Shown here: positions 33,338 to 64,000 of the stretch, piece by piece
Numbering within the stretch: position 1 is the stretch's first letter
Layout: the number at the start of each line of letters is the position of its first letter
Source of the DNA: Chromobacterium subtsugae
Lineage (GTDB): Bacteria; Pseudomonadota; Gammaproteobacteria; Burkholderiales; Chromobacteriaceae
Direction: 5' to 3'
Assembly (NCBI RefSeq): GCF_001676875.1
Contig: NZ_JYKA01000009.1
Location: 1-64,000 of the forward strand
DNA: 64,000 bases
The notes under the pieces: generated by a model
What the model saw: only the letters and a program-made list of their open reading frames with translations
Told to the model about the DNA's origin: nothing
Database searches by the model: none
Position numbers and translations under genes: made by a program

Positions 33338-33383
33338 AATCATGTCCTTATTGCTGTGTTTGAGAAGCGTGCGCAACGGCCGC

Positions 33384-34940: not shown

Positions 34941-36030
34941 GATGAGGCTCCCTGCTGGCGGCGCGCGGCGTGGCGCCGCGATACACGCGCTCGAACGCCG
35001 GCGCCGCGGAGATGGGCGCGCCGGCGATCCAGCCCGGGCCGCGTTCGCTCTTGAAGCGCAGGTAGTCCGGATATTCCGCATCGGTGACGAAGTTGTACGT
35101 CAGCGAAATGCTGGGCGACAGCGTATGCACCTCATGCGTCAGCCCCTTGGGAATCAGCATGATCTCGCCCGGCCCCAGGTCGAAGCGCCAGATGCGGTCC
35201 GCCTGGCCGCCCAGGCCGCGCCCGGCGGCGGACGGCGCGCGAGTGGCGCGGCCCTCGGCCGCGCTGCGGGCCGCGTCCTCCAGCGATGCGGAAAAAATCC
35301 AGCCGGCCTTATGGCCCGCCGCCTGGCACAACACCGCGTTGCTGCGCATGCCGTCCACATGCAGCCGGGTGCACGCGCCCGGCGCGGAGAAATACAGCCC
35401 CCAGTCCTGGCACATCCGCAGATTGGGCCGCAGCTCCCCCGCCTGCACCCAGGGAATCCGGTAGCCGCCGGCCGGCAGGAAATAAGGCCTGCGCCAATGG
35501 TCGCGGATGCGCTGGAACGCCAGAAAGCTGAACGAGCGGGTGCGCACCAGGTGGCCGAAGCCCCAGGTGAACAGCAGGTGCTTGAAAAACGAATCATAGG
35601 TGTAGCGCAGGTAATCCAGGTCGCGCCCCGCCTCGCCCAATTCCACGGCCGGCAGCGAGGCGATGCCGCGCAGATAGGCGTGCAGTTCCACCTCGCTCCT
35701 GGGCTTGAAGCCGGCGTCCTGCAGCCGCACCGGCATATCGCCGAACTCGCGGCAGAAGTAGTCGAAGCCCCAGATATCCCGCGCCGGCCAATCGCGCAAA
35801 CCGTCGCTGACGATGACCGGCTCGTTGCGCATCAGGTAGCGCTCGGCGAAGTCGGCGGCGGAAATATCCGCCACCCGCGCCACATCGCGGTAGTCGGCCG
35901 CCCGCAAGCGCTCCGCCGCGTCGCCGTGCGCCGGCTGCGCCGGCCACTTGCGGCGGTAGATGCTCGCCTCTTCGTAGGCCCATTGCCCGACATCGCCCAG
36001 CGCATTCCATGCATTGCCGAAAAAACCCAT
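34933..36030 (-). CDS. JmjC/cupin-like Fe(II)/2-oxoglutarate oxygenase
   Basis: The 365-residue protein has the build of cupin-like JmjC hydroxylases. The N-terminal YLMRNEPVIVSDGLRDWPA is the family opening, RLHVDGMRSNAV gives the HxD pair that binds iron, and THEVHTLSPSISLTYNFV supplies the distal His and substrate-side strand. Such enzymes hydroxylate amino-acid side chains, free or on carrier proteins. It lies 13 bp after the PKS stop and overlaps the thioesterase start, so it probably tailors a building block or the peptide. A beta-hydroxy amino acid in the product is the simplest inference. Confidence 0.75.
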   Translation of the reverse strand: MGFFGNAWNALGDVGQWAYEEASIYRRKWPAQPAHGDAAERLRAADYRDVARVADISAADFAERYLMRNEPVIVSDGLRDWPARDIWGFDYFCREFGDMPVRLQDAGFKPRSEVELHAYLRGIASLPAVELGEAGRDLDYLRYTYDSFFKHLLFTWGFGHLVRTRSFSFLAFQRIRDHWRRPYFLPAGGYRIPWVQAGELRPNLRMCQDWGLYFSAPGACTRLHVDGMRSNAVLCQAAGHKAGWIFSASLEDAARSAAEGRATRAPSAAGRGLGGQADRIWRFDLGPGEIMLIPKGLTHEVHTLSPSISLTYNFVTDAEYPDYLRFKSERGPGWIAGAPISAAPAFERVYRGATPRAASREPHLV

Positions 36031-40958: not shown

Positions 40959-43900
40959 TCAGGCAATGCCTTCGCGGATAGGGGTTCCGGCGCCGCGCGC
41001 CTCGGCCGCGCCGGCGTCCAGGCCGGGGAAGTCCGCGGCGGCCAGTCTGGCGAAAAAGCCGGCGTGGCCGCCGCGGACGCGGCGGATGGCGGCGCGCCCG
41101 TCCAGCGCCCCCTCCAGCGCGGCCACTTCCCGGCCATCGGCGTCGTCGGAGAAAAACAGCGTCGCGGCCAGGCCGCCGTCAAGCAGCGCAAGCGCCCGCG
41201 CCGTGAAGGTTCTGCCGCTCAGGAAACGGTGCTGCAGCCGGTAATGCAGCCACTCCCGGTGCAAGGCCGGAGACGCGGCGCGCAAGGCTTCCTCATCCGC
41301 CGCCGGGCCGGACAGCTGCCCCAGCTCGCTGAAGAAATCGCGGAAACCGGCGTACAGCGCCGGCCCGTCGAACACGCGGGTTTGCAGATTGGGGTCGAGG
41401 AACACCAGTCTGGCGACGCCCTGCGCGGCTTGCGGCTGTCTTTCCAGCAGCGCCGCCAGCATCTCCGCGCCCAGCGAGTAGCCGCCCAGCCACAGCGGAC
41501 GGGCGAGATCGCCGGCATGCGGCCGCAATGCTTCCAGCAAAGCGCGCTCCAGTTCGGCCGGAGACAGCGCGTCGAGCGATGCATGCTCCAGCGTCAGCGC
41601 CGAAACCGTCACCCGTCCCGCCAGCCGGCCGGCCAGGGCCTGCAGCTCCACCAGCCCGCCCAGCGCCGGCGGCAGCAACAGCAGCCTGGGCGTCCCCGGC
41701 ACGTCGGCGTTCAACCGGCGCTCGCGCACGATGGCGCCGGCGCCGCCGCCGGCGCGGCGCGCCTCGATCAACGCCCATTGCGCGCCTACCGTGGCGTTGC
41801 GGAACACGTCGACCGGACTGAAGTCGACGCCGAAGCGCGCCTCCAGCTGGCTGGCCAGCCGCACGGCGCTCAGCGACGAGCCCGACACCAGGAAGAAATC
41901 GGAATCCGCCGCCAGCGCGCCCTGGTATGCCAGGCAGTCTCGCCAGCAAGCGACCAGTTGGCGCATACCATCGTCCAGTGCCGCGTCCTGCCCCGCCGCC
42001 GCCGGCAGGCTTTCGCGCCAGGCATGGAACAGCGCCACGATCCTGGCCCGGTCCAGCTTGCCGATATCGGTGCGCGGCAGGCCGGCCACCGGAAAAATGG
42101 CGGATGGCAGGTGCGAGCGCGCGTAATGGCCCGCCAGGTGCCCGCGCAGGCCGGACAGACTGCTCGGCTCGCCCTCCACCGCCAGCACCAGGCACGCTTC
42201 CGGCGTGCCGGCGAACGCCACCGCGGCCCCCGCGGCGGCCACGCCCGGATATTGCCCGGCCCGGCTCTCCAGCTCGCCCAGCCCGATGAAGTTGCCGCGC
42301 ACCTTGCAGCTGTCGTCCATGCGCCCCTTCAAATAGAACAGGCCGTCTCTGTCCGCCATCGCGCAATCGCCGGTGCGGAAGAAGCTGCCCTGCTCGTCGC
42401 GGCCGAACTTGGCCGCGCTCAGCGCCGGGTCGTCCAGATAGCCATGCCGTTCGAAATCGCCATAGATCGCCAGCTCGCCCCATTGGCCGGGGCGCAGCCG
42501 CCGGCCATCGGCGTCCAGCACCGCGAAGGCGACGTGCGCGAACGGCCTGCCTATCGGCAGCGTCGGCCCCGACGCCGCCGCCGCGCAATCCACCATGGCG
42601 GCGGCGATGCAGGTTTCCGTCGGACCGTAGCTGTTCCAGATCCGCATGCGGCCCAGCAGGCGGCCGATGTCGCCGGGCGCGAGGAAGTCCCCGCCGCTGA
42701 TGCACACTTCCGGCAGCGGCTGCAGCCCCTCCATCCGGTTCCAGGCGGCCAGCAAGGCCGGCGCGGCGGAGATCACGTCGGGACGCCGGCTTGCCAGGAA
42801 CGCCTGCGCCCGGCGCTCGTCCAGCAGGCTGTAGCGGTCCGCCACCACGCTGGCGCCGCCCAGCGCCCAGGCCAGCAGCACTTCCTCGAGGTAGCCGTCG
42901 AAACTGGGGGAAAACTGCTGCGTCACCCGCATGCCCGGCCGCAGCTTCAAGGTGTCGACCAGGGAGTCCAGATACTGGGCCGCAGTCGCGGCCGCGACGC
43001 AGATGCCCTTGGGCCGGCCGGTGGTGCCGGAGCTGTACAGTATCCAGGCGATGGGATTGTCGGCCCGGGCCTTCTCGCTGCGGAAAGCGCGCCAGTCGGC
43101 ATCGGCCGGCGCCGGGGCATCGTCGGCGTCAAGCGCCAGATCCGGGGCCGCGTGGCGGATCACTTCGTCGATGCGCGCCTGCGGCGTGCCGCGCTCCAGC
43201 GCCAGATAGGTGGTGCGCGTCAGGAAGCAGGCCGCCAGGAACGCCTGCATCCGCCGCCCCGGCAAGCCGACCATCAGCGCGCGCCTGACCTCGCGGCGGT
43301 TCAGCCGCTGCGCGTAGGTGGCGACAAGGGCGGAGAAGCCGTCCCAAGAGAGCTCGCCCTCGTCGTCTATCACCGCCGGACGGCCGCCCAGCTCGGCGAA
43401 GCCGCGCAGCAGCAGATCATCGATCTGCGCGTAGGCGGCGCGCCGCCGCGCCGGCCGGAACGCCCGCGCGGCCGCGGCGGCGTCGGCCAGCATCTCGTCC
43501 AGCGGCAGTTCGGCGGGCGCGCGGCCCAAGGCCAGCGCCAGTGCCGCCCGATAGCTGGAGGCGATGGCGGCGACCCTTTCGCCGGCGAATACGGCAGGCT
43601 GGTACTCCAGCGCGAAGCCGCAGCCTTGCCCGCCATCGCTGACCGCCAGGCTGAGCGGCCCATGCGCCTCGATGGCCAAACCGGCCTCACCGGCGCCGTC
43701 CTCCTCATCCTCCGCATAGGCATAGGCGACGTTCAGCAGCGGATTGCTGCCGAAACGGCGCGGGTCCTCGTTCAACAAGGGGAACACTTCCTCCACCGGG
43801 AAAAACAGCTGCTCGGCCGCCCGCCATTGCTGGTCCGCCAGCGCCTTGACGTAGTCGGCGAAGGTTCCGCGCGGCTGCCCCAGGCGGAACGCGCAGGGCG

Positions 43901-46900
43901 CCAGCGACACGAACATGCCGACGGTGGCCTGGACCTGCCGCGGGCGCAGCGCGTTCGCCACCGAAATGGAAAAATCGCCGCTTCGCCCTTCGCGCGCCAC
44001 CGCCAGGCCCCACAAGGCCAGGAAGAACACCGCCGGCGTCACGCTCAGCTGCGCGCACAGGCGCTTGACTTGCGCTTGCTCGGCCGCCGGCAGGCGCCAG
44101 CGGAGCGCGTCGCCGCGGTCGTCGCCCAGCGCCGCGCCATGGCCGAAAGGATCGAAATCCAGCCCGTTCAGGCAATCTTGCCAATAGTCTTGCGCCCGGC
44201 TCCACAGCGGATGCCGGCGCGCGCCGGCCAGCGCCGCCGCATAGCCGCGATAGCTCAGCTCCGCCGCCGGCGGCGCCTCTCCGCGGGACAGTTGCGCGAA
44301 CTCGCGCTGCAGCTGCTCCAACGCCGGCTTGTCGACCAGAATGTGGTGGATTTGCAGGCGCAGCCGGGCCCGTTCCGTGCCCATCTCCAGCAGGCAGCCG
44401 CGCAGCAGCGGCCCCTGGTCCAGCGCGAAGGCCCGCGCGCTCGCCCGCTCCCAATCCTCGCCGGCGTCCAGCAATACCCGCTCTACCGGCAAGGCCGGCA
44501 AGATGTCGGCGCAGGGCTCGCCCCGGGCATCAAGCCGGTAGCGGGTGCGCAGGATGTCGTGCCGCGCCAGCAAGGCTTGCAGCGCCTGCCGCGCCGCGCT
44601 GGCGGACACTTCGCGGGCCAGCGGCATCTCCATCGCCAGCACATAGGCCATCGAATCCGGATGCAGCCGGTATTGCGCATACAGGCGGGCTTCCTGCGCG
44701 GACAGCGGCCCCGGCCCATCCGCCGCTGACGCCTCGGCGAGCAGGATGGAAAACGCGTCCGCGCCCGCGCCGCCGGCTTGCGCCGACTTGGCGTCGACCA
44801 GCTCCGCCAGCGCGGCTATCGTTTCGTGCTGGAAGAATTCGAGCAGGGACACCTCCAGGCCGAAGCGCTGCCTCAGCTCCGCCAGCACGCGCGCCGCCCG
44901 CAGCGAATGGCCGCCCAGCGCGAAAAAGCTCTTGTCCGCCGGCACCGCGTCCGCGTCCAGCTCCAGGTGGCGCGCCCAGCACGCTGCCAGCCACGTTTGG
45001 GTGGCGCCGAGCGGCCGCGCGGCGGCGCCGTTGCCGGCTTCGCTCAGCAGCCGCTTCAACTGCAGCCGGTCCAGCTTGCCGTTGCGGGTCTGCGGCAGCC
45101 GCGCGGCCAGCGCGATCTGCCCAGGCACCATATAGGCCGGCAAGCGGGCCAGCAAAGCCTCGCGGATGGCCCGCTCGTCCAGCCCGTCGTCCGCCGCCGC
45201 GACCAGCGCCGCCAGCCGCGCGTGCCCCAACCGGTCTTCCACGCCGATCACCGCGGCCTGGGCGACGCCCGGCAGCGCCAACAGGCTTTTCTCCACGGCG
45301 TCCAGCTCGACGCGGAAGCCGTTGACCTTCAGCTGGCGGTCGCGCCGCCCCAGCACTTCGATATCGCCGCCGGCGTCCCAGCAGCCCAGGTCGCCGCTGC
45401 GGTAAAAGCGGCCGCTCAGCCGCTCCGTCTCCAGTTCGATGAACGCCTTGGCGGTCAGGTCCGGACGGTTGAGATAGCCGGCGCCCACGCACACCCCGCC
45501 GATCAGCAACTCGCCCGCCACGCCGATGGGGCAAGGCTCCAGGGTGCCGGGAAACGCCACCACGCACCGGCAGCCGCGAATGGGCTTGCCGACGGTGATC
45601 TGCCGGATGCCGACCGCCATGCGCAGGCAGGTCGCGAATACGCCGGTTTCGCTGGGGCCGTACACATTGAACAGCTCGTAATTGTTTTGCCTATGGCTGC
45701 GCAGGCTTTCGCCGCCGAAGTACAGCTGGCTCAAGCCGGGGATGTCGCCCAGCGCCATCAACTCCTCCGCCAGCACCGTCGTGGCGAACGCCACATCGAT
45801 GCGGTTTGCCGCGAGGAAGGCCGCGTATTTCTCCGCGTCGACGCGGACATCGTCCGGCACCAGCACCAGCACGACGTCTTGCGTCAGCGCCTCCACGCAA
45901 TCCAGCAGGAAATAATCGAAAGTGTGGTTCGCCGCGGAGGCGACCCTGAGCCGGCCAGCCGGACTGAGCGCGCGCTTTTCCCGGCTCAGGTTGAGCAGCG
46001 CCCGATGCGTGTTGACGCTGCCCTTGGGCTTGCCCTCGCTGCCGGAGGTCATCACCACGCACAAGGCATCGTCGGGACTGGCGGCCTCGCCCATGTGCAG
46101 CCATTGCGCCAGCTGGGGCGCCGGCGCCGCGGCGGAGGCGTCCCAGCGCGGCAAGACCACCGTCTGGCAGCCGCGGGCATGGAAAAACGGCTCCCAATGG
46201 CGGCAATCGTCCGGCAGCAAGGCCACCTTGCTGCCATGCAAGGCGACGATGTCGGCCATCTGCTCGGCCGGCAATTCGTGCGACTGCAGGCAAAACGGCT
46301 TGCCTATGCGCATGCATGCCATCGCCGCCAACGCGAGCTCCAGGCTTTTCGGCCCGACGATCAGCACGCAATCGCCCATTTCCTGCCACTGCGGCCAAGC
46401 GGGGTCGCTCAGCAGCGCGGCGGAATAACGCTCCAGCTGGGCGAAGCTGACGCTGTCGCCGCCGCGCTCCAGAAACGTCGCGTCCGGCCTGTCGCGCAGC
46501 GCCGCGGCGATGGCCTGGGCCAGGTTGGGCCAGGCCAGCGGCCAGGCCGGCGCCTGGGCGGACAGCGCGTCGATGCGCTCCCTTTCCGCCTGCGGGATCC
46601 ACGGCATCGCCGCAAGCGGCGCGCCCGGATCGAAGGCCATCGCCCCCAGCAGCAAGCTCAGGCGCTCCAGCAACAGCGACGCCAGCTCGGCATCCACGCG
46701 GCCGGCGTCGAAGCGCATGTGCAGCCGGGTCTGCGCCGGACTGGCCTGGACCCAGATGCCCAGCGCGCAAGCCGACAAATCCGCGCCCTCGAACGGCGAG
46801 CGCGTCTCCGAATAACCGATCAGCACCTGGGGCGGCGCGCCGCCCATTTCCGTCTGCGGCGGCAATCCGGCCGTCAGCGCGGCGGTCTGCTTCCACAGCG

Positions 46901-47291
46901 CCAACTCGGCGCCGAACAGGCTCTTGACCGGCTGCGCCAGCGTTTCCGCCGTCACCCGCCAGGCCGCCGGCAACTGGTGGGCGCCGGCCGCATCCGCGTC
47001 CAGCGACCAGGCCAGCACGCCTTCCTCCTCGCGGCAATGCAAATAGGCGAGCAGCTTGAGGCAGGCTGAGAACAGCGCTTGCCGATGCAGCGCCGACGCC
47101 GACGCCATGGCGAAAATCCGCTCGTTGAGCGCCGGCGCCAGCTCGACAGCCGCCGCCGACATCGCGCCGGATGCCGGCCGGGAGACCGCGAAGAACGGGC
47201 AGCCCCGGTATTCCGCGGCCGCCTGCCGCTGCGCATAGTCCTTGAGCGCCTGCTTCCGGGCGTTCAAGGCGATGGGATCATTAATCAGCAT
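40959..47291 (-). CDS. NRPS, terminal: half-C - A - T - C - A - T - TE
   Basis: ATG 47291 (CAGGAAAC and GGAA upstream) gives 2110 residues; an upstream extension overlaps the previous gene. Residues 1-235 look like only the C-terminal lobe of a condensation domain, without HHxxxDG. The first A domain (240-740, TSGSEGKPKG, YRSGDLG, NGKLDR) is followed by T (GGHSLRA, Ser about 792). A complete C domain follows (HHILVDK, about 982). The second A domain (about 1280-1760, YSSGTTGRPKG) precedes T (SGSSLSA, Ser about 1801). The C-terminal thioesterase has GYSLGA near 1937 and a late GGHAGFF His. The TE makes this the final module pair, adding two residues and releasing the chain. The specificity pockets are unusual and I cannot name the amino acids. 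Confidence 0.88.
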   Translation of the reverse strand: MLINDPIALNARKQALKDYAQRQAAAEYRGCPFFAVSRPASGAMSAAAVELAPALNERIFAMASASALHRQALFSACLKLLAYLHCREEEGVLAWSLDADAAGAHQLPAAWRVTAETLAQPVKSLFGAELALWKQTAALTAGLPPQTEMGGAPPQVLIGYSETRSPFEGADLSACALGIWVQASPAQTRLHMRFDAGRVDAELASLLLERLSLLLGAMAFDPGAPLAAMPWIPQAERERIDALSAQAPAWPLAWPNLAQAIAAALRDRPDATFLERGGDSVSFAQLERYSAALLSDPAWPQWQEMGDCVLIVGPKSLELALAAMACMRIGKPFCLQSHELPAEQMADIVALHGSKVALLPDDCRHWEPFFHARGCQTVVLPRWDASAAAPAPQLAQWLHMGEAASPDDALCVVMTSGSEGKPKGSVNTHRALLNLSREKRALSPAGRLRVASAANHTFDYFLLDCVEALTQDVVLVLVPDDVRVDAEKYAAFLAANRIDVAFATTVLAEELMALGDIPGLSQLYFGGESLRSHRQNNYELFNVYGPSETGVFATCLRMAVGIRQITVGKPIRGCRCVVAFPGTLEPCPIGVAGELLIGGVCVGAGYLNRPDLTAKAFIELETERLSGRFYRSGDLGCWDAGGDIEVLGRRDRQLKVNGFRVELDAVEKSLLALPGVAQAAVIGVEDRLGHARLAALVAAADDGLDERAIREALLARLPAYMVPGQIALAARLPQTRNGKLDRLQLKRLLSEAGNGAAARPLGATQTWLAACWARHLELDADAVPADKSFFALGGHSLRAARVLAELRQRFGLEVSLLEFFQHETIAALAELVDAKSAQAGGAGADAFSILLAEASAADGPGPLSAQEARLYAQYRLHPDSMAYVLAMEMPLAREVSASAARQALQALLARHDILRTRYRLDARGEPCADILPALPVERVLLDAGEDWERASARAFALDQGPLLRGCLLEMGTERARLRLQIHHILVDKPALEQLQREFAQLSRGEAPPAAELSYRGYAAALAGARRHPLWSRAQDYWQDCLNGLDFDPFGHGAALGDDRGDALRWRLPAAEQAQVKRLCAQLSVTPAVFFLALWGLAVAREGRSGDFSISVANALRPRQVQATVGMFVSLAPCAFRLGQPRGTFADYVKALADQQWRAAEQLFFPVEEVFPLLNEDPRRFGSNPLLNVAYAYAEDEEDGAGEAGLAIEAHGPLSLAVSDGGQGCGFALEYQPAVFAGERVAAIASSYRAALALALGRAPAELPLDEMLADAAAAARAFRPARRRAAYAQIDDLLLRGFAELGGRPAVIDDEGELSWDGFSALVATYAQRLNRREVRRALMVGLPGRRMQAFLAACFLTRTTYLALERGTPQARIDEVIRHAAPDLALDADDAPAPADADWRAFRSEKARADNPIAWILYSSGTTGRPKGICVAAATAAQYLDSLVDTLKLRPGMRVTQQFSPSFDGYLEEVLLAWALGGASVVADRYSLLDERRAQAFLASRRPDVISAAPALLAAWNRMEGLQPLPEVCISGGDFLAPGDIGRLLGRMRIWNSYGPTETCIAAAMVDCAAAASGPTLPIGRPFAHVAFAVLDADGRRLRPGQWGELAIYGDFERHGYLDDPALSAAKFGRDEQGSFFRTGDCAMADRDGLFYLKGRMDDSCKVRGNFIGLGELESRAGQYPGVAAAGAAVAFAGTPEACLVLAVEGEPSSLSGLRGHLAGHYARSHLPSAIFPVAGLPRTDIGKLDRARIVALFHAWRESLPAAAGQDAALDDGMRQLVACWRDCLAYQGALAADSDFFLVSGSSLSAVRLASQLEARFGVDFSPVDVFRNATVGAQWALIEARRAGGGAGAIVRERRLNADVPGTPRLLLLPPALGGLVELQALAGRLAGRVTVSALTLEHASLDALSPAELERALLEALRPHAGDLARPLWLGGYSLGAEMLAALLERQPQAAQGVARLVFLDPNLQTRVFDGPALYAGFRDFFSELGQLSGPAADEEALRAASPALHREWLHYRLQHRFLSGRTFTARALALLDGGLAATLFFSDDADGREVAALEGALDGRAAIRRVRGGHAGFFARLAAADFPGLDAGAAEARGAGTPIREGIA

Positions 47292-47308
47292 TTCCAGAGT
47301 TTCCTGCT

Positions 47309-53663
<6,355 letters not shown>

Positions 53664-53674
<11 letters not shown>

Positions 53675-56600
53675 AGCTCTCTTCTTTCAACTCGATCAGT
53701 TGACCGTTTTTCATGATGATCAGCGCATCCGCTTCGGCGAAATACTCATCGTCATGGGTCACGACAAAAACAATGCGGCCCTGGGCTTTCAGCATGGGTA
53801 GCCACTCCTGGTAAAACCGGGCCTTGGCGCGGGGGTCCTGGTCGGCGGCCCACTCATCCAGCACCACCAGCGGGCTCGGGTCGGCCAGCAGCATCGCCAG
53901 CGACAGCCGTTTGCGCTGCCCGGTCGACAGCTTGATGCTGTCGAAGGCGCCGTCATCGCGCAGTTCGGTCTTGCCGGCCAGCCCCAGCAGCGCGATGTTG
54001 CGGTTGATCGCCTCGCGCGACTGCGCCAGCGCCGGGTCGTAGAGGCGTTTGAACAGCCAGTTGTCGCTGAAGATGGCTCGGGTCAGCTCCAGCAGCCGGC
54101 GGTGCGGAACCTCCGCGCCGTTCACCTTCACCGTGCCTTGCGACGGCGCGTACAGCCCGGCCAGAATCATCGCCAGCGTGCTCTTGCCCGAGCCGTTGCC
54201 GCCGGTCAGGAAGTAGGCCTTGCCGCTTTGCGCCGTCAGCGACAGCGGGCCCACGCCGAAGCGCTCGCCTTCGGCGCCGGAAGCCGGGTAATGGAAGCTC
54301 ACCGCCGACAATTCCAGGGTGTGCACCGCGGAGGGAGGCGACGCGTCCGCCGCCCGCGCGTCGGAGCGGATGGACTGGCAAAACGCCACCATATTGCGCA
54401 TCAGGCTTTGCAGCCGGATCAGCTCGGGCATCGCCGACATCACCGCGTTCAGCGGGCCGATCAGGTACAGCAGGATGATCAGGTATTCCTTCGACGTGTC
54501 GGCGTCGAAGCGCGGTATCAGCAGCGGGAACAGCAGCGCCACCGCCACCAACAGCACCGTGAGCAGCGATTCGCCGATGAAGAACGCGCCCAGGAAGCCG
54601 CGGTCGTACTGGATCCGCAAGGCTTTGAATCGGTCGGAAACCGCTTGCGCGTGGCGGTGGAAGCCTTGCTTCACCGCCTCGCGGCGCAATCCCTTGTAGC
54701 CTTTTTGCAAGTCCTCGACCGCGTCCATGAACTCGCTGCGGGTATCCAGCGCCTGGGGCATCAAGCGGTTGGCGCGCTGGGAGACGTAGTAATACAGCCC
54801 GACCATGGGCAGCACGCACGCCAGCAGCACCGAGGTGGCCGCCGCGGATTTGAATGCCATCAGGTAGGCGAACAGGAACACGATGGTCAGCAGGTTGGCG
54901 AAAAACGGCACGAAGGCCAGCACGCTCTTCGCCAACTCCTGGGAGTCTTCCCCCACCACCGACTGTATCTTCCCCGGCGACAGCCGCTCGACGCTCTGGT
55001 AGTCCGACGCCAGCAGCCTGCGGATGATCTCCATCCGCCAGCCCTGCACGAAGGCGTGGCCGAAACGCATGATCTGCTGCTCGGCGGCCTTGCGCGACGA
55101 GATATAGAAATAAATGCAGTTGAACAGCAGCGCGGCGCTGAACGCCAGGTGCGAGGCCGGGCTGCCTATGGTCTGGATGATGCACAGCACCAGCGCCGAG
55201 TTGAGCAGGCCGGAAATCACGGTCAGCCCCACCACTCTGGCGATCATCAGCGCGGAAAACGCCTTGCCGGAAAAATCGTCGCCGCGCCGCGCCGCCAGGA
55301 AGAAGAACAGGCTGACGGCATTGGCGAAGAAGACCAGCCCCGCGGCCGCCGCCGGCAAGCTGGCGGGGCCCCATACCAGCAGGCTAGTCCACCCCAGCCC
55401 GGCCAACAGCGGCGGCGCCGCCGCCAGCGCGGCCAACAACGCCGCGTTCTGCACCGCCAGCCGCGCCAGGAAGGCCCGCCAGCTGGCCGGTTCGGCCGAC
55501 TGCGCCAGGCTGTCGCGGATGATCGCGCCCTCCAGGCTGCGCGCGGGGGCGCCGGCGGCGGCGGCTCGCTTGCTCCAGCGCGCCCAGGCCGGCCAAAGCA
55601 GCAGGCCGCCCAGCCAGAACAGCGCCGCCGCCGCGGTGGACACCCAATCGCCGCTATCGGCGGCGAAGCTGGCCGGCAGGGTTTGCGGATCCGCGCCGCG
55701 CAGATGCTGGAAGACCGAGCGGCCCAGCTGGATCACCTGCGGGCTGTTGCTGTTGCCCAGCATGACCACGCCGACGCCGGCCGCCGGATCGAACGCCACA
55801 TAAGCGCCCGCATTCGGGTTCTGTCCCGGATGGCTCCAGCTGGAGGTTTTGCCGGCCTCCACATCCCAGCCGTAGGCGTAGCCGGCGTCGCCGCCCCCGC
55901 CATACGGCCGCTTCGCCTGCTGCAGCGCCGCGTACAGCGCGGCCTGGCTGGCGTCCGCGCCCGGCTTGGCTTCGCGCTGCAGCAAGAAGCGCAGCCAGGC
56001 GGCCATGTCCTCCGGCGTGCTCAGCACGTAACCGGCCGGCGCGTTTTGCAGATAACGCGGCGCCTGGTACGGCCGGGCAGCGGTGAAGCCCACCTTATAG
56101 CCGGGGATGCGCGCCAAGCCGGCGGGCGCCGCCGGATCGCCTTCGACGAAGGTGTGCCGCATGCCCAGCGGCAGGAAGATCTTCTCCCGCAGCAACACCG
56201 CGAACGGCTTGCCGCTTGCCCGTTCCGCCACCAGCCCCAGCAGGCTGTAGTTCAGCGTCGCGTATTCCTCCTTGCTGCCCACCGGATAGGCGAGCGGCAC
56301 ATCCTGCAGCAGCGCCGGCAGCCGCTCCAGCGCCTGGGGCCCGCCGTCGGGCCGCAGCAGGTCCAGCGTGTCTTCGGCTATGCCGCTGGTGTGGAACAGC
56401 AGGTTCTTGAGGCGGACGGCGGCATACCCCGACGAGGGCCTCCGCGCCAGCTCCGGCACCCAGCGGGTGAGCGCATCGTCCCGGCTCAGCGCGCCCTCGC
56501 GCTCCAATTCGGCGATCAGCAGCCCGGTAAAGGCCTTGGAGCACGAGGCCAGCTCGAACACGCCGGCCTCCTGCTTGCCCAGACGCATGGTCCGGGTCTG

Positions 56601-56780
56601 CCCGCCCGCCACCACGCTCAAGGCGCCGGTGGGAACCTGGCCGGCGTCCCAGCGCGCGCTCAGCTCGCCGAGCGCGCGTTGCAGATCCCCGCCGGGCGCC
56701 GCCGCATGCGCGCCGCCTCTCAGCGCCAGGCACAAGCAGGCCAGGGACAGCGCCAGGCGGAACCATCCGGACTTAGCCAT
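53664..56780 (-). CDS. S12 peptidase fused to a SyrD/PvdE-like ABC exporter
   Basis: The 1038-residue protein starts at ATG 56780, eight bases after GGAGGG, overlapping the PKS stop. A signal peptide (to about 28) leads to a beta-lactamase-like S12 domain (30-370) with SCSK (Ser79, Lys82), Tyr173 in YATLNYSLLG and HPGQNPN as third motif. Three membrane helices (about 375-500) follow. The rest is a full ABC half-exporter of the cyclic-peptide type: TMD, Walker A GGNGSGKST (about 862), LSTGQRKR and DEWAADQD. ClbP and XcnG share the peptidase plus three helices and cut an acyl-D-Asn leader from prodrugs in the periplasm; as I recall, the zwittermicin protein ZmaM adds an ABC exporter. Export and activation by one protein is the inferred role. 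Confidence 0.85.
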
Positions 56781-59700
56781 TGATTTCGCCCTCCTGCTTG
56801 GCGCCGCGCAGCTTGCGCTGCGCCAGCAAGGCCCGCCGCTTGTCTCCCGCGCCGGATGGGGGCGTCTGCGCGGACTCCGCCGCCGCCGCCGCGGGCGCCA
56901 GCTCCCGGCTCAGTTCGCGCAAGGAAGCCGCCTTGAACAGCAAAGCCACCGGCACTTCGCGTTCCAGCCTTTGCTCCAGCCGCTTGGCGAACTGGATCAG
57001 ATCCAGCGAGGTGGCGCCCAGCGCGAAGAAGCTGGCGTCCACGTCCAGGCCATCGGCGCCCAGGAACCCTTCCAGCATCTCGCGCATCGCCGGCAGCAAC
57101 GCGTCCGCGTCCGCGCCTTTCAGCGAGTCGCCGCCGGCCGCCTCCGCTCCCCCGGTTTTTGAACCCGCGCCAAACAACATCTGCTGCGTGCTCGACTGTT
57201 TCTCAAGCACCGCGCCGATCGGCAGCTTGGACACCGCCAGATACGCTGTCGGGCTCTGGCGAACCAAGGCCGCCATCGCCATGGCGATTTGCGTGCCCTC
57301 CGCGTCGCTCAGCCCTTCTTCGCGCAATTTGGCGGCGAAGCCGCGCGCCTCGCCGCGCTCTTCCATCGCGACGACGATCTTGCCGATATGCCGCCCCTGC
57401 GCCATGAACTGGAACGCGTCGGCGATATCCCTGGCCGGATAGGCCTTGGTCGGCAGAGGCCGCAGCGCCTCTTGCTCCAGCAACTGCACAACCTCGGCCC
57501 ACGCCTCGCGATAGGCCGGATGCTCCGCGCCGGCCTGCACCGCGTGGAAACTGCCGCCTTCGGCGAACAAGGCCAAGCCCAGCCGCCAGTTCTGCAAGAT
57601 GTCCCGCAGCCCCAGCTCCAGGAAACGGCCTTGCGGCGCCAGCAAGGACAGGCTTTCCTCCAGCAGCTCTCCGGCCAGCGCGTTGAGAATCACCGCAAAA
57701 GGCCGCTCGCCGAGCTGCCGGCGGAAAACCTCGCCGAACTCGCGCGTTCTGGAGTTCGCCGCCCCCTTGGCGCCCATGCCGATCAGCAGCTCGCGCTTTT
57801 CCTCGCTGCCGGCGGTCACCCAGACCTCAGCCCCCAGATAGAGCGCGATCTGCATGGCCGCCATGCCGACCCCGCCGGCCGCGGAATGGATCAGGATGCG
57901 CTCGCCGCGCTTCAAATTGGCCGCATGGCGCAAGGCGATCCACGCGGTGGTGAAGGCCACCGGCACGCCGGCCGCCTGCTGGAAGCCCAGCGTGCGCGGA
58001 ATCGGCGCCACCACGCGGCGGGGCATCAGCACGTGCTCCGCCAGGCAGCTGTGGCCAGCGCACATCACCCGGTCGCCGACGCGCACATCTTCGACCTCCC
58101 GCCCGACCCGGGTCACGACGCCAGCGGCTTCCTGGCCGAAGGTCATGCTGGGGTCGGTCGGGGCCGGCAGCACGCCCAGCGCGATCAGGACATCCTTGAA
58201 GTTGAGCCCGGCCGCCTTCACCCGGATCTCCACTTCCTGCGGGCCGGGCGCCCGGCGCGGCTCCTGCCGCGTATCGAAGGCGAAGCCCGCGCCGCCGTCC
58301 TCGCCGCCGCGCAGCCGCATCACGCCATGGCTGTCGGCGCCGCCATCCCGCAGCGCGGCGGACGCGTCCACCAGCAGCAGGTCGTCGATCGCCACCAGCA
58401 ACGCGCCGTCCTCGGAGAAAATTCTCACCTGCAACAGCTTGTTGGCGCCCAGTTCGCCGATCCGCACATGGCTGAGCACGCTGTCGCGCATCGGCGCGAA
58501 CTGGCTGAATCCGCCGATCGACACCGGCGCGAATTGGGCGTCGGCGTCCTCGGGCGAAGCGATCAGGGTGGCGGTGTCCAACAACGCGATATGCAGGCCG
58601 CACTCCGCCGCCTCGCCACGGAACGCCGCCGGCAGTTGCAGCCGGTTCAGCACTTCGCCGGCGCCGAGGCGATCGACGGCCACCACGTTGCGCCAGCGCG
58701 GTCCGAAGTCCAGCGCGCCTTGCGGGCTGACGCCCGCGCCGTCCCCGGCGCGGAACAAGGGTTCGCCGGACAAGCCCGGCAAGCCGGCGTCGGCCGCCGC
58801 GCGGGCGCCCACCTTGCCGCCCGCATGCTTGAGCCAGGTCGCGCGGGAAAACTCGCCCAAACCGGAGAAAATCTCAAAAGCGCCGAAATCAGCGGCGAAC
58901 GCCACCACGACATCGGTCTGGGCGGCGTCGGGCACCACCAGCGGCCGCTCGATGGCCACCCCTTGCAAGGAGAACGCCGCGCCGTCGGCGCGCGTCTGGG
59001 CCAGCGCGCGATGGACCAGGGCCAACATGCCCATGGCAGGCATCACCGCGGTGCCGGCGTCGAGACGATGCTCGTCCAGCCACCAGTCCCGCCGCGCATC
59101 CAGCCGGCTGCGCCAGACAACGCCGTCCGACTGCTCGGCCGGGCCGGACTGCAGCAGCGCCTGGTCCAATTGCCGCGCCGAACGGGTGGCCATGCCGGAC
59201 TCCGCCCAGTCGTCCCAGGCGATGGCCAGGGCCTTGCCGCCCTGGCTGCGCGCCTGCTCGGCGTAGGCTTCCAGGCAGGCGTTGGCGGCGACATACGCGA
59301 CCTGCCCCACTTTTTCCTTGGGCAGCAGATTGCCCAGGCTGGAGAACAGCAGCAGCGCCGGGTTCCCCAGCTGCGCCAGGCTGGCGCACAGGAAACGGCT
59401 GCCCGTCACCTTGGGCGCCAGCGTGGCCGCCGACTCCGCCTCGGTGCGCATCTGCATCATCGCGCCTTCGCCGCGGCCGGCGGTGTGGAACACGTAGTCC
59501 AAGCCCTCGCCCTGCGCCGCCAGCCGGAAAACCGGCTCGAACGCCTTGGCCAGCGACGCTTCGTCGCCCAGTTCCGCCTGCAGCAGGGTCACCCGGCTGC
59601 CCATGGCTTCCAAGCCGCCCACCCAATGCAAAAACGCCGCGTCGGGGCCGGCGCCGGCCATTGTCTCCGCCCATTCCCGGCGCGGCGGCAGCGCTTTGCG

Positions 59701-62700
59701 CGTCAGCAGCAGCAAATCGCAGTGATAGACCCGCGCCAGGTGCTCGGCGATGGCGGCGCCCATGCCGCCATTGGCGCCGGTGATCAGCACCCGGCTGTTG
59801 CGGCCGATGTCCGGCAAAACCCGGTTCAGCGGCTGCGACTGCGCGCGCGCGGTGACGCGCCGGCGCCAGAAGCCGCCGTCGCGCCGGCAATAGAATTGCC
59901 CGCCTTGCCAGCCTCTATCCAGCCAGAGCCGCAGCGCCTGGCCGATGTCCCGCGCGTCGTCGCCGGGGAAGTCCACGCCCAGGGCGGCGATGCCGGGGTA
60001 TTCCTCCGGCGCGATCAACAGCGGCCCCAGCAATTGGCTTTTCTCCGCGGCCAGCGTTTCGGTTCCGCTCCAGGCCGCCATCTGCGTGGCGGGGAACAGC
60101 AGCCGCAGCTTGGGCGCAGGCGTTTGCCCGGCGCTCCAGCGCGCCAGCGCCGTCGGCAGCCAGAATGCCCAGAACTGCGCCTGGCGCGCGTCCAGCGCGT
60201 CCAGCAAGCCGGTGGCGACGATGTCCATCGCCGCGGAAGGCTTCAGGCCTTGCCGCTCCAGCGCGGCCGGCAGTTCGGCGTGGATGCCGGCGAAGTCGCC
60301 GCTCCAGTCGCCGCATTCGATGAACGAGCAGGCGCCGTCGCCCCATCCCAGCGCGGCGGCCAGCGCGCGCTCTCTTTCCGTGACTTGCCGGCAAAGGATC
60401 CAGCCGGCCGGCGCGGCCTCTTCGCCGGCGGCGTCTCGCGCCGGCGCTTCCACCCGCTCCCACTCCATCCCGTAGTAGCGGGAGCCGAAAAACAGCTCGG
60501 ACGCCGTCAACGGCGCGGCGGCCCGCGGCGGCGGCGCGCAGACGCGCCGCTCGAACGCATGGCCGGGCAGATGCGCGCGCGCCGCGGCAGCCGGGCCGCG
60601 CAGGCGAGCCCATTCGATCGGCGCGCCATGCGTCCACGCCTGGCCGATGAACTGCAGCGCGGCGCTTTCCTCCTGCTCCGCCCCGCCCGTGCCCAGCGTG
60701 GGCGCCAATCGGCCGCCGCCCAGGCCCAGCCATTTGCGCGCGTTTTGCAGCAAATCGGCGCCGGCGCCGATCTGCGCGTACAGCGACGCCGGATGGGCGG
60801 CTTCGGCCTGCCGCAAGGCGGCGCCCAGCCGCACCTGGCCCAGCATTTGCTCCACCCAGTACTGCGGATCGCGCATCTCGTCGGCGGCCAGCTTCCGCCC
60901 CAGCGCGGTGGAATAGACCGCGCACTCGGCCGGGCGCAGCGCGTAAGCCTGCAGCAGTTCGCCGAAGGCGCGCGCCGCCGGTTCGATCAGCGGCGTATGG
61001 AAAGCATGGGACACCGCCACCCGCTTGTAGGAGAAGCCGCGCGCGGCCAGCCAGTCTTCCGCGTCTTGCGACCTGTCCTCGGCGGCGGCCAGCGTCCAGA
61101 CGCCGGGGCTGAGCTCCGACACCCGCCACAGCCAATCGGGCACTTCATCCAGGCCCTGGCGGCAATTGGCGGCGAATACCGCGCCCCGCGGCATGGCGTC
61201 CATCAGGCGCGCGCGCGCGACCACCAGCTCCATGCCTTCCTCCGGACTGAATACCCCGGCGACCGCCGCCGCGGCGAATTCGCCCAGGCTGAAGCCGCAC
61301 AGCGCGGCCGGCCGGCAGCCCAGCCGGCGCAGCCAGACGCCCAGCGCCGTTTGCGCGGCGTACAGAATGGGCTGCAAGCGCAGCGTGGACAGCTGCTCCG
61401 GCCGCTTCACGCTGTCGATCAGGGCCGAGGGCTCGATCGACAGCAACGCCGCCGCCTTGTCCAGCAAGCCTAGGTACAGGCCGCCGAACTCGGGATAGCG
61501 CTCCGCCAGGCGCAAGCCCATGGCGGCGGACTGCGTTCCCTGCCCCGGGAATAGCCAGACCTGCTCCGGCAGCGGCTCGCGCGCGCCGTCCAGCAGCGTC
61601 CAGCCATCCAGCTGGCGCTTCCAGCCTGCGCCGTCGGCGGCGACGAAAGCGGCGCGGCACGGGTATTCGGCGCGTCCCTCCTGCAGTTGGCCGGCGACAG
61701 CGCCCAGATCCAGCTGGGCGTCATGCAGCTCCAGATGGACGGAATAGGATGCGATCAGGCTGGCCAGCGCTGACGGCGAGCCGGCCGACAGCGGCAGAAT
61801 CTGGTCCGCGCCAGACTCCGGCGCTTGCTCGGCGGCAAGCGCGCGCGGCGGCTCTTCCAGCAGGACATGCACATTGGTGCCGCCGATGCCGAAGGAGCTG
61901 ACGCCGGCGCGCCGGATCGCTTGCGCCTGCGGCCACGCGGTCGCCTGCGTCGGCACCCAGAACGGCGTTTTGTCCAGTTCCAGGTGCGGGTTCGGCCGCT
62001 GAAAATGCAAGGATGGCGGGATCATGCCGAAGCGGACGCTCAAAGCCGCCTTGATCAGTCCGGCGATGCCGGCGGCGGCGTCGAGATGGCCCATATTGGA
62101 CTTGACGCTGCCGATGGCGCAGCGGAAGCGGGCAAGCTCGTCCGGCGCCAGCAATTCCGCGGCCACGCGGCTCAGCGCCTGGATTTCGATGGGGTCGCCC
62201 AGCGCGGTGGCGGTGCCGTGCGCCTCTATCATGCCCAGGCTGGAAAAGGGAATGTCCGCCAGCCGGTACACCTGCTCGATGACTTCGGCCTGCCCCCGCA
62301 CGCTGGGCGCCTCGAAGCTCACCTTCCGGTCGCCGTCGTTGTTCATGCCGGACTCCACGATAACGGCGTGGATCGGATCGCCGTCCGCCAGCGCGTTCTC
62401 CAGCAGCTTCAACAGCACCACCGCCGCGCCGTTGCCGTTCACCGTGCCCTGTCCTTCGTCGGAGAAGGTTTTGCAGTGGCCGTCCGGCGACAGGATCATG
62501 CCGTCGCGGTGCAGATAGCCGCCCGCCGCCGGGTCGGTGATGCACGCGCCGCCCGCCAGCGCCATCTCGCACTCTCCCGCCAGCAATGCCTTGCTGGCCA
62601 GGTGCACCGCGGACAGCGAGGTCGAGCAGGCGGTCTGCACATGCAGCGCCGGCCCATTCAGCTTCATCCGGTAGGCGATCTGCGTGGCGAACGAAGCCGG

Positions 62701-63159
62701 GTCGTTGTAATTGCCGACATCGAACATTTCCGCGATGTCCTGGCTGGCGCCGGCGAATTGCTCCAGCCGCTCCAGGTTCAAGGTGGAGCCGATGAACACG
62801 CCCGCGTTCAGGGTCGATTCGCCCGGGCGCAGGCCCGCGTCCAGAAAGGCGTTATGGCTGACTTCGTGCAGCACCCGCAGCTGCGGGTCCATTTTCTGCG
62901 CCTCCCGCTGCGAATAACCGAAGAATCCGTAGTCGAAGCATTCGGCGTCTTCCAGAAAGGCCTTGGCCGGGACGTAATGGGGCTGGTCTACCACCTCGGC
63001 GGGCACGCCGGCCGCCAGCGACTCTTCCCGCGAGAAAAACGACACCAGTTCGCGGCCCGCCAGCAGGTTGCGCCAGAAGACGCGCCAGTCGGGGCTCTGG
63101 GGGAATCGGCAGGACATGCCGATGATGGCGATTTCATTGCCGGTGTATTCGCGCTTCAT
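56773..63159 (-). CDS. Fully reducing PKS module (KS-AT-KR-DH-ER-ACP)
   Basis: ATG 63159 overlaps the upstream NRPS stop (ATGA), giving 2128 residues. The KS (8-430) has Cys178 in TACSTSL. The AT has GFSLGE (Ser about 622) and HAFH near 718, the malonyl-type motif. The KR (LITGANGGMG about 1125, YVAAN) comes before the DH (EHRLDAGTAVMP about 1365), and the ER (NFKDVLIALG about 1655, HSAAGGVGMA about 1760) precedes the ACP (GATSLD, Ser about 2049). KR before DH is not the usual cis-AT order (DH-ER-KR); I recall the same layout for ClbB of colibactin. One complete cycle would add a saturated two-carbon unit to the aminoacyl chain handed over by the A-T protein upstream. Confidence 0.9.
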   Translation of the reverse strand: MKREYTGNEIAIIGMSCRFPQSPDWRVFWRNLLAGRELVSFFSREESLAAGVPAEVVDQPHYVPAKAFLEDAECFDYGFFGYSQREAQKMDPQLRVLHEVSHNAFLDAGLRPGESTLNAGVFIGSTLNLERLEQFAGASQDIAEMFDVGNYNDPASFATQIAYRMKLNGPALHVQTACSTSLSAVHLASKALLAGECEMALAGGACITDPAAGGYLHRDGMILSPDGHCKTFSDEGQGTVNGNGAAVVLLKLLENALADGDPIHAVIVESGMNNDGDRKVSFEAPSVRGQAEVIEQVYRLADIPFSSLGMIEAHGTATALGDPIEIQALSRVAAELLAPDELARFRCAIGSVKSNMGHLDAAAGIAGLIKAALSVRFGMIPPSLHFQRPNPHLELDKTPFWVPTQATAWPQAQAIRRAGVSSFGIGGTNVHVLLEEPPRALAAEQAPESGADQILPLSAGSPSALASLIASYSVHLELHDAQLDLGAVAGQLQEGRAEYPCRAAFVAADGAGWKRQLDGWTLLDGAREPLPEQVWLFPGQGTQSAAMGLRLAERYPEFGGLYLGLLDKAAALLSIEPSALIDSVKRPEQLSTLRLQPILYAAQTALGVWLRRLGCRPAALCGFSLGEFAAAAVAGVFSPEEGMELVVARARLMDAMPRGAVFAANCRQGLDEVPDWLWRVSELSPGVWTLAAAEDRSQDAEDWLAARGFSYKRVAVSHAFHTPLIEPAARAFGELLQAYALRPAECAVYSTALGRKLAADEMRDPQYWVEQMLGQVRLGAALRQAEAAHPASLYAQIGAGADLLQNARKWLGLGGGRLAPTLGTGGAEQEESAALQFIGQAWTHGAPIEWARLRGPAAAARAHLPGHAFERRVCAPPPRAAAPLTASELFFGSRYYGMEWERVEAPARDAAGEEAAPAGWILCRQVTERERALAAALGWGDGACSFIECGDWSGDFAGIHAELPAALERQGLKPSAAMDIVATGLLDALDARQAQFWAFWLPTALARWSAGQTPAPKLRLLFPATQMAAWSGTETLAAEKSQLLGPLLIAPEEYPGIAALGVDFPGDDARDIGQALRLWLDRGWQGGQFYCRRDGGFWRRRVTARAQSQPLNRVLPDIGRNSRVLITGANGGMGAAIAEHLARVYHCDLLLLTRKALPPRREWAETMAGAGPDAAFLHWVGGLEAMGSRVTLLQAELGDEASLAKAFEPVFRLAAQGEGLDYVFHTAGRGEGAMMQMRTEAESAATLAPKVTGSRFLCASLAQLGNPALLLFSSLGNLLPKEKVGQVAYVAANACLEAYAEQARSQGGKALAIAWDDWAESGMATRSARQLDQALLQSGPAEQSDGVVWRSRLDARRDWWLDEHRLDAGTAVMPAMGMLALVHRALAQTRADGAAFSLQGVAIERPLVVPDAAQTDVVVAFAADFGAFEIFSGLGEFSRATWLKHAGGKVGARAAADAGLPGLSGEPLFRAGDGAGVSPQGALDFGPRWRNVVAVDRLGAGEVLNRLQLPAAFRGEAAECGLHIALLDTATLIASPEDADAQFAPVSIGGFSQFAPMRDSVLSHVRIGELGANKLLQVRIFSEDGALLVAIDDLLLVDASAALRDGGADSHGVMRLRGGEDGGAGFAFDTRQEPRRAPGPQEVEIRVKAAGLNFKDVLIALGVLPAPTDPSMTFGQEAAGVVTRVGREVEDVRVGDRVMCAGHSCLAEHVLMPRRVVAPIPRTLGFQQAAGVPVAFTTAWIALRHAANLKRGERILIHSAAGGVGMAAMQIALYLGAEVWVTAGSEEKRELLIGMGAKGAANSRTREFGEVFRRQLGERPFAVILNALAGELLEESLSLLAPQGRFLELGLRDILQNWRLGLALFAEGGSFHAVQAGAEHPAYREAWAEVVQLLEQEALRPLPTKAYPARDIADAFQFMAQGRHIGKIVVAMEERGEARGFAAKLREEGLSDAEGTQIAMAMAALVRQSPTAYLAVSKLPIGAVLEKQSSTQQMLFGAGSKTGGAEAAGGDSLKGADADALLPAMREMLEGFLGADGLDVDASFFALGATSLDLIQFAKRLEQRLEREVPVALLFKAASLRELSRELAPAAAAAESAQTPPSGAGDKRRALLAQRKLRGAKQEGEING

Positions 63160-64000
63160 GATGCGGAACTTCCTTTTGCTTTGCGGCGCCGGTCCGCCAG
63201 CCGGCTCTTGCCGGTCTGGGCGGATGACAGTTGGTGTTCGTGGGAAGACGAGGCGGCGGGCGCGCCGTCGCGCCGGATCCAGTCGGAGAAGGAGGCGATG
63301 GTCGGGTGCTCGAACAAGACCGCGACGCCGACCTCCCTATCGAAGGCCTGCCGCACGCCGGATTGCAGCGCGATGATCTTGATGGAGTCGCCGCCGGCGT
63401 CGAAGAAGTTGACATCGGTCGCAGCGGTGCGGCCGTCCAGCACCGCGCGCCACACCTGCTGCACCTTCGCCTCCACCGGATCGGTCGCCAACGCCGGGGC
63501 GGGCGCCGCCTGCTCCTGCAGCTCGGCGCGTTGCAGCAGGCGGTTGCGGTCTATCTTGCCGGTGAGCGTGCGCTCGAAACCATCCACCGCCACGATGCGC
63601 GCGGGCATCCAGGCCTCCGGCAGCTGGCTGCGGATGCGTTCGCGCACCAGGGGCAGCAGCGTCTCCGCCGCCATGCCGCTATCGACGAACAATCTCCATT
63701 GCCGCTTTCCTTCCGGCGTGGGCGCCGGCAGCAGGCTGCAGGCGCGGACTTCGGCCATCGCCTCCACCACCCGCTCCAGTTCGCGCGGCTCGATCCGCAC
63801 CCCGTTCACCTTCACCTGGTCGTCGATCCGCCCCAGGTATCTGAAACCCAAATCCGGCGCGAACGTCACCGCGTCGCCGGTGCGGTAGTAAGCCTGGCCG
63901 TCGCGCTCGACGAAGCTCTTGGCGGATTCGGCGGGATTGCCGGCATAGCCGCGCGCGATGGAGAGGCCGCCCACCCACAATTCGCCGCGCACCCCGGCCG
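63156..64000 (-). CDS. NRPS, C-terminal part (A - T), continues past the right edge
   Basis: The frame is open to the window end. It shows the late adenylation motifs (GELWVGG, YRTGDAV, GRIDDQVKVNGVRIEP, LTGKIDR), then a T domain with DAGGDSIKII, and a charged tail ending in a stop that overlaps the PKS start (ATGA). Only the last quarter of the A domain is present, so its amino acid and any C, starter or epimerase domains are hidden. It is the upstream partner of the reducing PKS. If the cluster follows the prodrug logic, the missing part or the gene before it should hold an acyl-starter C domain, an Asn A domain and an E domain. Confidence 0.9.
   Translation of the reverse strand, partial: AGVRGELWVGGLSIARGYAGNPAESAKSFVERDGQAYYRTGDAVTFAPDLGFRYLGRIDDQVKVNGVRIEPRELERVVEAMAEVRACSLLPAPTPEGKRQWRLFVDSGMAAETLLPLVRERIRSQLPEAWMPARIVAVDGFERTLTGKIDRNRLLQRAELQEQAAPAPALATDPVEAKVQQVWRAVLDGRTAATDVNFFDAGGDSIKIIALQSGVRQAFDREVGVAVLFEHPTIASFSDWIRRDGAPAASSSHEHQLSSAQTGKSRLADRRRKAKGSSAS

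Follow-up and report, generated by a model that had tools for sequence, protein, structure and literature searches.

Fused (type II) prodrug peptidases have been published as ZmaM of the zwittermicin, PamJ of the paenilamicin, and EdeA of the edeine pathway; they are described as a ClbP-like peptidase, membrane helices, and an ATP-binding cassette (ABC) half-transporter, are about 1,100 amino acids (aa) long, and are commonly annotated as cyclic peptide transporters (excerpts of PMC4234257 and PMC9889268). ClbP lacks an exporter half, and precolibactin has a separate transporter, ClbM (excerpts of PMC9889268). The rhabdobranin (rdb) cluster of Xenorhabdus and Photorhabdus is described with an N-acyl-D-Asn cap, a peptidase gene, an aminomalonyl unit, and a Pro-Ser dipeptide; RdbH occurs with or without its first adenylation (A) domain and RdbI with or without a thioesterase (TE) domain, and deletion of rdb1P stopped the release of N-myristoyl-D-Asn and led to accumulation of pre-rhabdobranins (excerpts of PMC9177418). 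Here we analyzed 64,000 nucleotides of Chromobacterium subtsugae (contig NZ_JYKA01000009.1, positions 1 to 64,000; the window), in which a 1,038-aa protein (53664..56780, minus strand) is by description built like ZmaM, PamJ, and EdeA. This protein is, in our judgment, very probably the prodrug-activating peptidase of an rdb-type cluster of nonribosomal peptide synthetases (NRPS) and polyketide synthases (PKS), in the exporter-fused type II form. Type II fusions and rdb clusters had both been published before; new is a member in a new genus, Chromobacterium. Unlike ZmaM, PamJ, and EdeA, which come from Firmicutes, the window protein is proteobacterial and has exporter-less orthologues in its operon family. 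Unlike the rdb clusters of Xenorhabdus and Photorhabdus, the window cluster sits in Chromobacterium, and its product is a prediction from the genes.

The open reading frame (ORF) is intact, beginning with ATG and running without interruption. An N-terminal hydrophobic stretch (aa 9 to 27), signal-peptide-like in a hydropathy scan, precedes the S12 peptidase domain (aa 41 to 347; 55740..56660), which was matched by Pfam Beta-lactamase (PF00144; E = 2.3e-60) and carries the motifs SCSK at residues 79 to 82 and YAT at 173. Alignment with ClbP and hydropathy placed a three-helix membrane domain at approximately aa 380 to 498 (55287..55643), seen in the scan as a segment at aa 380 to 398 followed by two overlapping segments at 436 to 469 and 466 to 498. 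The remainder (aa 506 to 1038; 53667..55265) is an ABC half-exporter comprising membrane part and ATPase. Here, Pfam gave ABC_tran (PF00005; E = 2.2e-21) at aa 845 to 978 and a match to ABC_membrane at aa 546 to 752 below the cutoff (23 versus 28 bits), and the ATPase motifs are complete (Walker A at 860, LSTGQ at 951, LVVLDE at 971, and VTHD at 1007). Hydrophobic segments of the exporter part lie at aa 507 to 547, 616 to 667, 727 to 761, and 765 to 785; since this was a plain hydropathy scan, helix counts are approximate, and the six exporter helices could not be separated individually. The half-exporter scored 264.8 bits against the YojI-type NCBIfam model NF007813 (cutoff, 604) and 238.2 bits against the cyclic-peptide exporter model TIGR01194 (cutoff, 286.2). 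Scores below both cutoffs indicate a relative of YojI and the cyclic-peptide exporters that stands outside both named families. ORF, Pfam, NCBIfam, motif, and hydropathy data thus confirmed the layout claimed in the original prediction (signal peptide, S12 peptidase with SCSK and Tyr173, three helices, and SyrD-like ABC exporter), and by Pfam the gene does lie between PKS (upstream) and NRPS (downstream) genes, as had also been claimed. Orthologues were found in two Photorhabdus genomes, in genome G839 of a further genus (genome numbers are ours), and in Chromobacterium sphagni, with 72 to 83% identity (for C. sphagni, over the 692 aa present on its contig), and in G861, with 64% identity in the peptidase half and 80% in the exporter half. 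Because of these orthologues, the joining of peptidase and exporter is not a product of chance.

Among structures in the Protein Data Bank (PDB), the peptidase part was closest to ClbP (E = 5.8e-40, 141 bits), with the runner-up molecule at 82 bits. Residues were compared in an alignment of 14 proteins, i.e., five fused proteins including that of the window, ClbP (represented by L041, a protein agreeing with the PDB ClbP letters shown), five type I peptidases, and three ordinary S12 proteins. The window protein possesses the catalytic residues S79, K82, and Y173, and its E76, T175, N246, and N321 correspond to E92, S188, H257, and N331 of the ClbP D-Asn pocket. Like ClbP, it also shares the residues of the three-helix domain, with W464, W470, and P472 equivalent to ClbP W460, W466, and P468. 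All 11 prodrug-type rows kept ClbP E92, S95, K98, Y186, S/T188, H/N257, N331, D381, P451, W460, W466, and P468. In contrast, the three ordinary S12 proteins all had N at ClbP position 188 and were without E92, N331, and W466; two of them had a W aligned at position 460 though they have no such membrane domain. ClbP E92, S/T188, H/N257, N331, W460, and W466 have been tied to D-Asn recognition or membrane-domain contact (excerpts of PMC9889268). The alignment with ClbP that the original prediction had proposed as a check therefore shows shared catalytic, pocket, and membrane-domain residues, and the window peptidase goes with ClbP and the type I prodrug peptidases, not with the three ordinary S12 proteins. 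It shares its pocket residues with the type I peptidases of three Photorhabdus genomes (L023 to L025); in the two clusters read, a protein bearing both an HHxxxDG/SW motif and an Asn-type code lies near the peptidase. Unlike the window protein, these type I peptidases are 470 to 475 aa long, have no exporter, show 29 to 34% identity, and belong to another operon.

Reading beyond position 64000, as had been suggested along with the prediction, revealed an Asn-type loading protein upstream of the peptidase gene. It has the order condensation (C)-A-thiolation (T)-epimerization (E) and lies at C76:67636-72072 on the minus strand (C76 numbering continues window numbering beyond 64000). Its A-domain code is DLTKVGEVG, and DLTK(V/I)GEVG was present in the C-A-T-E protein of all 12 clusters read; as a control, DLTKIGEVG was read in the loading protein next to the type I peptidase in both Photorhabdus clusters examined (2 of 2). 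Codes were extracted by alignment and their meaning assigned from code tables, in which we take DLTK-GEVG to denote Asn, DVWH-S-ID Ser, and DVQ-AHVV Pro. From its place in the loading protein, the first C domain is taken to be a starter C domain; outside the orthologues, it best matched the first C domain in one of these type I loading proteins, with only 21% identity. DLTKIGEVGK is mentioned in a section on Glu, Gln, Asp, and Asn domains (excerpts of PMC12283262).

Downstream of the peptidase gene, whose end shares 11 bases with it, NRPS2 (47309..53674, minus strand) has the order A(Pro-type)-T-C-A(Ser-type)-T and a further C-like end. Its codes read Pro then Ser in the window and in 7 of 11 other clusters and Ser then Ser in two; the first A domain is missing in the two Photorhabdus clusters. 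In the NRPS2 proteins of G839 (L044/L045, G839:C517:15178-21717) and of G861, the two A domains share one Ser-type code, and the two A-domain stretches compared in G839 differ by one letter; the Pro-type A domain of the G839 protein seems, from these letters, to have been replaced by a Ser-type copy. The operon further contains genes for a free acyl carrier protein (ACP; C76:74971-75222, recognized by sequence motifs), an acyl-coenzyme A (CoA) dehydrogenase (C76:73815-74978), a Ser-type A enzyme (C76:72076-73641), and a 3-hydroxyacyl-CoA dehydrogenase (32486..33397), all on the minus strand. We take these four to be the aminomalonyl-ACP set known from zwittermicin and colibactin.

The operon comprises 15 genes on one strand (C76 32486-75222), from the ACP gene (75222) to the 3-hydroxyacyl-CoA dehydrogenase gene (32486), the final gene of the conserved operon. 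In Photorhabdus tasmaniensis, all 15 genes are colinear, with 59 to 87% identity across the 15 gene pairs compared (that of the TE being short); a second Photorhabdus genome likewise has 15 colinear genes, the C-A-T protein being assigned there by place. Among 30 genomes of the genus of G839, presumably Xenorhabdus, nine possess the operon, seven with 14 and two (G862 and G882) with 13 of the 15 genes; in the latter two clusters, the cupin gene was not found. C. sphagni has three operon genes on a short contig. Two clusters of the genus of G839 look broken, i.e., that of G863 (L069/L070), in which PKS1 is split over three ORFs and NRPS3 over two, and that of G874 (L079), with the Ser-type A enzyme in two ORFs; frameshift and sequencing error are both possible. 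The Pro-Ser unit of NRPS2 and its variably missing first A domain agree with the description of rdb subtypes, and we infer that NRPS2 is the RdbH counterpart, with NRPS3 as the proposed counterpart of RdbI. Gene content, module order, and A codes fit the rdb family as far as it is described in excerpts of PMC9177418, so the claim that this is not a known cluster was probably wrong. Solanimycin was also considered and rejected: NRPS2 scored 1407.5 bits against the SolG model, under the cutoff of 2200, "peptidase" and "ABC transporter" did not turn up in the main text of the solanimycin paper, and the excerpts of its gene table show a different set.

Within the operon family, the exporter half was present in 6 of 13 clusters (those of the window, C. 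sphagni, the two Photorhabdus genomes, G839, and G861) and absent from seven, in which the orthologous gene encodes the peptidase and three-helix domain in ORFs of 516 to 586 aa. In C. sphagni, the contig breaks off within this gene, at residue 692 of the protein; as that residue lies past the junction, the cluster was counted as fused. Among the matches listed (E = 1e-40), proteins resembling the exporter half were 25 to 33% identical in the seven unfused genomes versus 80 to 82% in three fused controls, two of which also hold such a distant match. A core tree of seven other proteins (6,094 columns; the 12 clusters other than that of C. sphagni) separated fused from unfused clusters with 100% bootstrap support, so that a single change suffices. 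The fused proteins read SSGRY-TSKTF or nearly so across the junction in Photorhabdus and G839/G861 and RGDDFSGKAF in the window; three of the unfused genes end in SSGKY, PSGKY, or SSSRY, and the other four stop nearby in different ways. After the junction, the unfused loci keep 23 to 24 of the 25 bases that end the fused gene in five of seven cases; the two remaining loci keep 20 and 18. In fused genes, these bases encode the exporter tail IELKE-SY; the unfused loci thus retain codons for I-E-L, or close to it, ahead of the NRPS2 ribosome site.

This shared junction region with the exporter's last codons favors one loss of the exporter half. We lean toward loss rather than gain. Somewhat likelier than any other course, in our view, is a single origin of the exporter-less state, through a clean deletion of ∼1.6 kb after which the last codons remained as a scar; the pathway would since have diversified without the exporter. 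Two points weigh against a loss: some of the kept bases are expected anyway as the start region of NRPS2, and outgroup-rooted trees put the unfused proteins at the base with weak support. A less probable but still serious alternative is that a fusion event within the rdb family added the exporter half, independently of the ZmaM type. With ClbP and type I peptidases as the outgroup, the fused proteins nest within the unfused ones, as they do in a tree of the two dehydrogenases (HCDH+ACAD); the deciding branches are weak (82 to 87% and 28 to 47%), and the outgroup branches exceed two changes per site. Such a gain sits poorly with the bases for IELKE-SY retained in unfused loci, including the IEL codons before the ribosome site of the next gene, and with an xEL end shared with two of eight independent exporters, Escherichia coli YojI (SEL) and L002 of the window's own genome (YEL); two others end in TEM or KEI and four in neither. 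Among the open-access titles and abstract starts listed, none reported gain or loss of the exporter within rdb or its variable presence there (the supplements of the rdb paper may show it). As a separate observation, the exporter-less cluster of G863 has a cyclic-peptide-type ABC exporter gene ∼0.6 kb beyond its last gene (L068 4345-5970, G863:C1:3459345-3460970; 541 aa, 27 to 28% identical); further genomes of that genus have genes like it at other places.

The assignment to rdb, which we hold probable, is a specific match of descriptions and architecture, the locus having been set against rdb1 of X. budapestensis by description and not by sequence. Several points weigh against the main reading. 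Family membership was compared by published description, and both the product and the cleavage in this strain are predictions. The A codes were read by alignment against code tables, with position 278 of the Pro code in an alignment gap, and the second NRPS2 code is DVWHFSQID in the window versus DVWHFSLID elsewhere. The E domain was called by its HHxxxDxxSW motif and matched no other C or E domain in a small comparison. The TE-like end of NRPS3, containing GYSLG (GYSLG or GYSIG in 12 of 12 clusters), was recognized by eye, Pfam giving no TE match for the window protein at E = 1e-3. Finally, ClbP K235 and D387 are replaced by R224 and A384; at position 235, all five type I proteins have K and the five fused ones R or G, and D387 occurs in ClbP alone among the 11 prodrug-type rows and is for that reason not a defining residue here. 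It seems unlikely, though worth weighing, that the protein is a ClbP-like prodrug peptidase serving an N-acyl-D-Asn cluster that makes a new scaffold and not a rhabdobranin. Besides the comparison by description, a new scaffold would suit the C-A-T-E protein, 51 to 60% identical to its 11 orthologues, the long branch of the window cluster in the core tree (0.53), and the stand-alone TE, which is present here and in both Photorhabdus clusters but turned up in none of the nine clusters from the genus of G839. Against this stand the shared gene order, Pro-Ser codes, and aminomalonyl-type gene set, and the code of the C-A-T protein, DPENIGHVD in 9 of 12 clusters and different by a single letter in the other three. 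That an ordinary S12 enzyme (beta-lactamase or carboxypeptidase) was accidentally joined to a transporter, with no role in product maturation, is very improbable, since the catalytic motif common among S12 proteins and the Pfam call Beta-lactamase, which would allow it, are outweighed by the equivalents of the D-Asn pocket and W466 that the three S12 controls lack and by a peptidase at the equivalent operon place in 13 of 13 clusters (C. sphagni with just three genes on its contig).

The other genes of the rdb-type operon, all on the minus strand, are as follows. Next to the loading protein gene lie those for a trans-acting acyltransferase (AT; C76:66401-67639, recognized by sequence motifs) and for the C-A-T NRPS (C76:63156-66398, of which 63156..64000 is in the window). 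PKS1 (56773..63159) gave Pfam matches in the order ketosynthase (KS), AT, ketoreductase (KR), dehydratase, enoylreductase, and ACP. NRPS3 (40959..47372) has two A, one C, and two T domains by Pfam. PKS2 (36044..40936) showed KS, KR, ACP, and C, with no AT match among its Pfam domains, and is presumably served by the trans-AT. A cupin/JmjC-like protein with a putative tailoring role (34933..36030), the stand-alone TE (34119..35081; true start uncertain), and a GNAT acetyltransferase (33384..34112) complete the operon.

The peptidase is patchily distributed. Counting the query's own genome where it belongs, it was present in 2 of 19 Chromobacterium genomes (E = 1e-200), 2 of 61 genomes of the window's family (E = 1e-30), and 1 of 398 genomes of a phylum sample (E = 1e-30). 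Six of 12 Photorhabdus genomes gave a match (E = 1e-12), two of them fused, three type I, and one a weak S12 match alone; in samples of the Photorhabdus family, matches were found in 1 of 119 genomes (E = 1e-30) and in 6 of 392 (E = 1e-25), three of the latter fused-type. In the genus of G839, 14 of 30 genomes matched (E = 1e-25), nine with the rdb type and five with type I only. At most three candidates were scored per genome in the phylum sample and the large family sample, and four weaker loci matching in the ATPase part only (L014 to L017) were left out. Patchy occurrence in two distant groups suggests transfer, and the rdb-type cluster apparently reached Chromobacterium in this way. No plasmid-borne relatives were found by tblastn with aa 1 to 520 at E = 1e-20; with aa 1 to 505 at E = 1e-6, 693 plasmid records matched, and of the 40 listed, those with an annotation were serine hydrolases or class C beta-lactamases. 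The full protein matched at least 5,000 records, and the 20 listed covered the exporter half only. Among the open-access titles and abstract starts listed, none described this cluster in Chromobacterium.

Two further gene sets were seen in the window. A second assembly line at its left end (2454-9637, plus strand, with 9716-10510) has a PUFA-synthase-type look and includes a TE, a KS protein whose C-terminal domain is FabA-like, and a protein that combines nitronate-monooxygenase, FabD-insert, and carrier domains. A tyrosinase gene with a DUF7868 domain (25811-27361, plus strand) adjoins a multicopper oxidase gene (23350-25458, minus strand).

The observed domain layout, catalytic and pocket residues, complete ATPase motifs, and operon context suggest how the pathway may proceed. 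Judging from its domains and the code DLTKVGEVG, the C-A-T-E module would couple an acyl chain to Asn and epimerize it to D-Asn. From the gene set and codes, the line would then extend this with more residues, a polyketide unit in reduced form, Pro-Ser, and aminomalonyl, the last built from Ser on the free ACP. The ABC half, as a homodimer, may carry the capped precursor across the inner membrane, and the periplasmic S12 domain, braced by the three-helix domain, would cleave after D-Asn via S79, K82, and Y173, releasing acyl-D-Asn and a free-amine product, probably of the rhabdobranin type. This cleavage step is proposed from the conserved ClbP residues and the effect published for the rdb1P deletion in a relative (excerpts of PMC9177418). 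The cap would provide self-protection, the precursor presumably being inactive. The loading module and ClbP-type residues support, at the level of sequence, the prodrug logic of the original prediction, an inactive precursor that would be cut during or after export. Neither of the two findings named there as refuting it, lack of an Asn/epimerase loading module upstream and grouping of the peptidase with ordinary S12 proteins, was seen.

The prodrug strategy described from nematode symbionts would thereby extend to Chromobacterium, in which, C. sphagni included, a rhabdobranin-like product is predicted. Clusters that are otherwise colinear, with and without the exporter, make the coupling of cutting to export testable, and the unfused clusters raise the question of what carries the precursor once the exporter half is gone. 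If the single loss is true, peptidase and exporter would represent modules that can be separated, and type I-like peptidases could arise from type II proteins as well as the reverse.

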